From a virus: a DNA stretch of 64,000 bases. Positions 31,087 to 31,158 of the stretch are shown piece after piece; position 1 is the first letter of the stretch; every line of letters starts with the position of its first letter. Location of the stretch: positions 38,517 through 102,516 of IMG/VR virus record IMGVR_UViG_3300032334_000556; one strand, written 5' to 3'. A program made the translations under genes and the position numbers. Below the pieces are notes generated by a model. The model had not been told where the DNA came from, did no database searches, and saw only the letters and a program-made list of their open reading frames with translations.

Positions 31087-31158
31087 ATGTGGACTAAACC
31101 TACTGCAACGGAAATGCGTTTTGGCTTTGAAATTACAATGTACGTAGCCAATCGCTAA
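31087..31158 (+). CDS. pqqA: PQQ precursor peptide PqqA
   Basis: This 23-residue peptide has the length and pattern of bacterial PqqA: MWTKP at the start, then [13 protein letters not shown] at the end. The Glu and Tyr of FEITMY are separated by three residues, exactly the pair that PqqE and later enzymes cross-link and excise to make pyrroloquinoline quinone. AAGGAG stands 8 bases before the ATG, and a hairpin (TGTCC/GGACA, 31055-31069) lies just upstream. No other pqq gene is in the window, so the phage would rely on host PqqB-E. Known bacterial PqqA peptides are 22-29 residues. The fit is strong for so short a gene. Confidence 0.85.
   Translation: [23 protein letters not shown]

Follow-up and report, generated by a model that had tools for sequence, protein, structure and literature searches.

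A pqqA gene in a T4-like phage with a likely Methylophilaceae host and its occurrence in unrelated methylophages

PqqA is a ribosomal peptide whose Glu and Tyr residues become PQQ. According to established biochemistry, one PqqA is consumed per PQQ, whereas the PqqB-E enzymes turn over. PQQ is the cofactor of methanol dehydrogenases, the drivers of methanol turnover in lakes and in the sea. Phages are known to carry host-derived auxiliary metabolic genes of energy metabolism, such as cyanophage psbA and similar genes. Viral pqqA belongs to a known kind of gene, since Coutinho et al. (2020) reported PqqA together with methanol dehydrogenase in the Lake Baikal T4-like population VP_266, assigned to Methylophilaceae (PMC7678222). 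A 2026 reservoir study also lists viral pqqA, pqqE, and pqqD (PMC13188868). In the hosts, 3 to 12 pqqA genes are found beside a typically single pqqBCDE set, and it is usual for Methylophilaceae to have extra pqqA genes but no second pqqBCDE set (PMC4109929). Papers on cultured OM43 phages (PMC9004378, PMC10580990, PMC8163748, and PMC8024684) do not mention phage PqqA, and in the open-licence full texts the breadth of pqqA across unrelated methylophages appears to be undescribed so far.

Here, we analyzed a window of 64,000 nt, which corresponds to positions 38,517-102,516 of the 102,516-bp IMG/VR record IMGVR_UViG_3300032334_000556. A preliminary description, made from the sequence alone, had proposed a 23-codon pqqA gene with a ribosome-binding site in this window, while cautioning that phage pqqA might already have been reported; the Lake Baikal virus (PMC7678222) proves this caution right. 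The gene was found exactly as proposed at positions 31087..31158 (plus strand), with an ATG at 31087, a TAA at 31156-31158, and an AGGAG ribosome-binding site at 31074..31078 (plus strand), 8 nt before the ATG. When the peptide was compared to PqqA profiles, as had been suggested, it matched PF08042 (Pfam PqqA; 40.4 bits, cut-off 21.1, E=2.7e-10) and TIGR02107 (NCBI equivalog; 41.8 bits, cut-off 20, E=6.5e-11) far above chance. The Glu and Tyr residues described as its cross-link pair are indeed present as Glu15 and Tyr19, in the E-x3-Y spacing from which PQQ originates. The PqqA peptides of Methylophilaceae hosts (PF08042, TIGR02107) likewise have 23 amino acids, a WTKP start, and the E-x3-Y pair. 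In PHROGs, no family was found for the peptide. The whole record contains only one PqqA match, and tblastn detected no pqqB-E genes in the window, in agreement with the preliminary description, or in the remainder of the record. Thus, adjacency to pqqB-E, which is common for PqqA but not defining, is absent. We conclude that the sequence data confirm the small ORF as a genuine PqqA gene, predicted to be translatable and conserved as a protein.

The surroundings of pqqA are those of a phage. The window harbors T4-type genes for gp23, scaffold, UvsW, clamp, clamp loader, RegA, and a family B DNA polymerase, and further genes for RecA/UvsX-like and DnaB-like proteins and ribonucleotide reductase. 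The pqqA gene is located between regA and the DNA polymerase gene, with a structured RNA and then hsp20 on its 3' side. Among cultured phages, the best matches of the gp23 major capsid protein were the four Melnitz methylophages (66%), and matches to Pelagibacter myophages and cyanophages ranked behind them. The pqqA gene is a metabolic gene of the host type, and the genome that carries it is clearly that of a phage, a T4-like myovirus. A Methylophilaceae host is likely on two independent grounds, namely, pqqA itself and the gp23 relationship to Melnitz; the phage context and the methylotrophic host that had been postulated were thus supported by independent tests. We also observed a TET/JBP-type 2-oxoglutarate oxygenase gene (39260-40582, plus strand; PF12851, 90.9 bits), a candidate for a DNA base-modifying enzyme, and a CobS-like AAA ATPase gene (phrog_249, labelled porphyrin biosynthesis) near a gene for a large phrog_459 "peptidase" protein (24594-25748 and 21659-23941, both plus strand).

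For an analysis of conservation, viral sequences were scanned with a pattern that ends before Glu15 and is therefore blind to Glu15 and Tyr19, which yielded at least 120 loci. Loss of the Glu/Tyr pair in related phages, which would have spoken against the proposed identity, was not observed: with this blind pattern, both residues were kept in 120/120 of the viral matches listed. The length of 23 amino acids and a ribosome-binding site were also preserved in 120/120 of these matches, which comprise at least 45 distinct peptides. Across 107 distinct viral nucleotide sequences, pS was 0.65 and pN was 0.11 for the whole gene (pN/pS 0.16), and the values for codons 15-23, which lie outside the search pattern, were similar (pS 0.77, pN 0.13, pN/pS 0.17). 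These ratios argue for strong purifying selection on the peptide.

The invariant residues bear on the possibility that the phage peptide is a decoy or brake, which would occupy PqqD/PqqE and reduce PQQ synthesis by the host, so that carbon is diverted or the host stalls. Competition with host PqqA is conceivable for a standalone substrate analogue, and pqqB-E genes are not nearby. However, a decoy has no need for the cross-linkable residues that are conserved without exception in the viral matches listed, and the commonest peptide among these matches is identical to the commonest Methylophilaceae host PqqA. We therefore consider a decoy improbable.

Genes pqqB, C, D, and E were detected by tblastn at 0/145 viral loci, while the same search found them at 22/120 host loci (positive control). 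In the 19 long pqqA-bearing virus records tested, exactly one pqqA was present in each. Phage copies thus differ from those of the hosts in being standalone, single in each long record tested, and unaccompanied by pqqB-E. A jumbo-sized viral contig of 356 kb (L025; IMGVR_UViG_3300023174_000036) also has a single pqqA. ORFs shared with a cultured methylophage, the freshwater Venkman relative mentioned below, or the present record were detected at 125 of the 145 viral loci. No ORF of the other 20 was shared with cultured methylophages or the present record; many of the viral contigs are fragments. A distinct subgroup of viral PqqA peptides (L007, L012, L014, L018, L022, L027, L034, L038, L076, and L115) may stem from phages that infect other PQQ users.

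Among 50,697 phage records, 12 matched PqqA (tblastn). Nine of them are methylophages (Venkman, MEP301, MEP401, MEP402, P19250A, and four Melnitz phages), and the tenth is a freshwater (spring-water) podovirus related to Venkman. The remaining two, both Acinetobacter phage MD-2021a records (L128, CAKLQF020000010.1; L129, CAKLQH020000055.1), were set aside as probable bacterial chromosome filed as phage, because pqqA is accompanied there by pqqB, C, and D as well as a radical SAM gene, with ppk or dipeptidase genes next to them. In all seven methylophage-type records inspected, pqqA was unannotated or the annotated ORF was on the opposite strand.

Single-linkage grouping of the viral contigs by shared ORFs produced one component of 138 held together by mosaic genes; it was discarded for lineage counts, which were based on comparisons of structural and packaging proteins. 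For Venkman, MEP301, MEP401, and P19250A, the terminase, portal, and capsid proteins were compared, and for Melnitz the terminase; no relationship among them was recognizable, with the exception of a weak Melnitz-Venkman terminase match. This suggests that, the weak match aside, at least five separate structural lineages carry pqqA. Genomes of the podo- and siphovirus type also carry the gene, next to other neighbors. The nearest relatives with other hosts are Pelagibacter phages (for Venkman and MEP301), Vibrio and roseobacter phages (for MEP401), and Pelagibacter myophages and cyanophages (for the phage studied here), and no pqqA match was obtained in them by tblastn of the 50,697 phage records. 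Since unrelated methylophages carry pqqA and their other-host relatives gave no match, pqqA, judged by these comparisons, follows the host and not the phage family. Every methylophage record that surfaced carries pqqA, with the denominator being incomplete, because MEP431-434, HIM624-A, and Venkman EXVC038S were not among the records that surfaced.

This distribution is also relevant for the view that pqqA is a mere passenger, i.e., a recently captured host copy without function in the phage. Although the hosts offer many standalone copies for capture, recent and functionless capture is difficult to reconcile with a pN/pS of 0.16 at near-saturated synonymous change, with the presence of pqqA in unrelated lineages, and with ribosome-binding sites in every copy among the at least 120 matches listed, and it has very little probability in our assessment. 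We lean towards the reading that Methylophilaceae phages carry pqqA almost obligatorily, that they acquired it repeatedly, and that it has been largely overlooked. These phages would encode only the consumable substrate and rely on reusable host enzymes; the presence of pqqA would then mark a PQQ-dependent methylotroph host.

Downstream of pqqA, we detected a conserved structured noncoding RNA of 88 nt with stems P1-P4 and a pseudoknot (31266..31353, plus strand; model R1, 90.5 bits). It is followed by a terminator-like hairpin with a UUCG loop and a T run (31357..31394, plus strand) and by hsp20, a small heat-shock protein gene (31421..31918, plus strand; PF00011, 64.5 bits; phrog_432), a neighbor outside PQQ function. 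The exact 20-mer TTCACCTTAGGACCNCTAAG of the RNA is present in at least 119 IMG/VR stretches, and among the matches listed, hsp20 lies downstream of the RNA in 109/113 evaluable loci. In 51 distinct sequences, 96.8% of cells pair, and covariation was evident from 144 double changes vs 48 in shuffles. Furthermore, the pseudoknot pair occurs as U-A, G-C, or A-U, with no exceptions, and the model matches most hsp20 loci picked irrespective of the RNA. Homologs include L065, L089, and L364-L478. No family in Rfam 15 matched the RNA. A blastn search of the phage collection did not detect it, and neither did a model search of five methylophages and six host genomes. In many T4-like phages, the RNA thus forms the leader of an hsp20 operon, and in some of them it is situated directly 3' of pqqA.

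Indeed, pqqA directly precedes the RNA and hsp20 not only here but in approximately 32 of 123 RNA-bearing loci among the matches listed. This arrangement would suit a leader peptide, in which translation of the small ORF regulates the downstream RNA and the hsp20 operon and the resemblance to PqqA is secondary. However, most RNA-bearing hsp20 loci are without pqqA, and a general association between the two was rejected, because the RNA is present in only 6/97 pqqA loci searched; accordingly, we regard the RNA as separate from pqqA. Moreover, podo- and siphovirus-type genomes have pqqA beside different neighbors, and it is the amino acids that are conserved, not translation alone. A regulatory leader peptide is thus highly unlikely.

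In 94/115 relatives among the matches listed, a CTCGCTTA..AGGAG element is located 3' of the RNA. In 24/115 of these loci, a TATAAATA is found 16-21 nt ahead of the conserved motif of the RNA, which looks as if it were transcribed from its own late promoter. Before hsp20, ACTCGCTTAATAGGAG (31400-31416 in the window; 3193-3255, minus strand, in L089) is reminiscent of a ROSE RNA thermometer; it has an anti-Shine-Dalgarno stretch opposite AGGAG. One relative matched ROSE_3 below the threshold (23 bits vs a cut-off of 43); the window itself gave no ROSE_3 match.

A late promoter had also been postulated upstream of pqqA, and this claim did not hold up well. The octamer TATAAATA, a possible T4-type late promoter, is present at 30981..30988 (plus strand), but its four copies in the window, all on the plus strand and three of them intergenic, compare to 3.8 expected. 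Within 180 nt upstream of pqqA, it was found at only 4/32 T4-like pqqA loci. Since the octamer is no commoner than chance and seldom precedes pqqA at the other T4-like loci, the late-promoter assignment is weak.

What could a phage gain from this gene? In our view, it is quite probable that the locus is a genuine pqqA gene in a T4-like phage of a Methylophilaceae host and that the phage gives the consumed substrate while host PqqB-E make PQQ. The phage would encode the consumed part only, because host PqqB-E are reusable; during infection, host PqqD would bind the phage peptide and host PqqE would cross-link it, so that PQQ could stay available to methanol dehydrogenase as host gene expression falls. 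If a phage shuts off expression in its host, PqqA alone would need replacement, because the peptide is used once while the enzymes turn over. We infer that the peptide is translated in infection, processed by the host enzymes, and beneficial to the phage, and that phage pqqA would boost host PQQ.

Consistent with the published numbers, 10/10 Methylophilaceae genomes tested had 2 to 12 pqqA copies. In these bacteria, PQQ supply already seems to be managed through multiple genes for the consumed peptide, to which the phage would add one. Because host pqqA dosage is already high, a single additional copy may make a difference only upon shutdown of host DNA or transcription.

The dehydrogenase that uses this PQQ must be that of the host, since methanol dehydrogenase (TIGR03075) gave no match in the 102.5-kb record and none in 20 further phage records (19 with pqqA, up to 356 kb). 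The same search bears on the idea that the peptide is destined for a PQQ enzyme that the phage itself encodes, in a genome part missing from this record. Such an idea draws on the T4-like Lake Baikal virus VP_266, in which methanol dehydrogenase and PqqA were described together (PMC7678222), and on the incompleteness of the present record, but the lack of TIGR03075 matches in all these records makes it very unlikely. Supply of substrate to the host pathway is the reading we prefer.

If unrelated phage families keep supplying PqqA, infected cells probably continue methanol oxidation, and the 72-base pqqA gene would offer an easy means of assigning a host to viral contigs that lack one. It would also represent a class of auxiliary genes missed by annotation, in which a peptide substrate is encoded and not an enzyme.

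In comparison to known systems, the present phage resembles VP_266 (PMC7678222), which is also a T4-like virus with PqqA and a predicted Methylophilaceae host, and in which the gene was read as an auxiliary metabolic gene for methanol oxidation. As described, VP_266 differs in having a methanol dehydrogenase as well. Similar to cyanophage psbA, pqqA is a host energy-metabolism gene that lytic phages seem to retain by selection, in parallel with their host range. In contrast to psbA, phage pqqA encodes neither an enzyme nor a photosystem protein but a consumed peptide substrate of 23 codons, which gene callers tend to miss.
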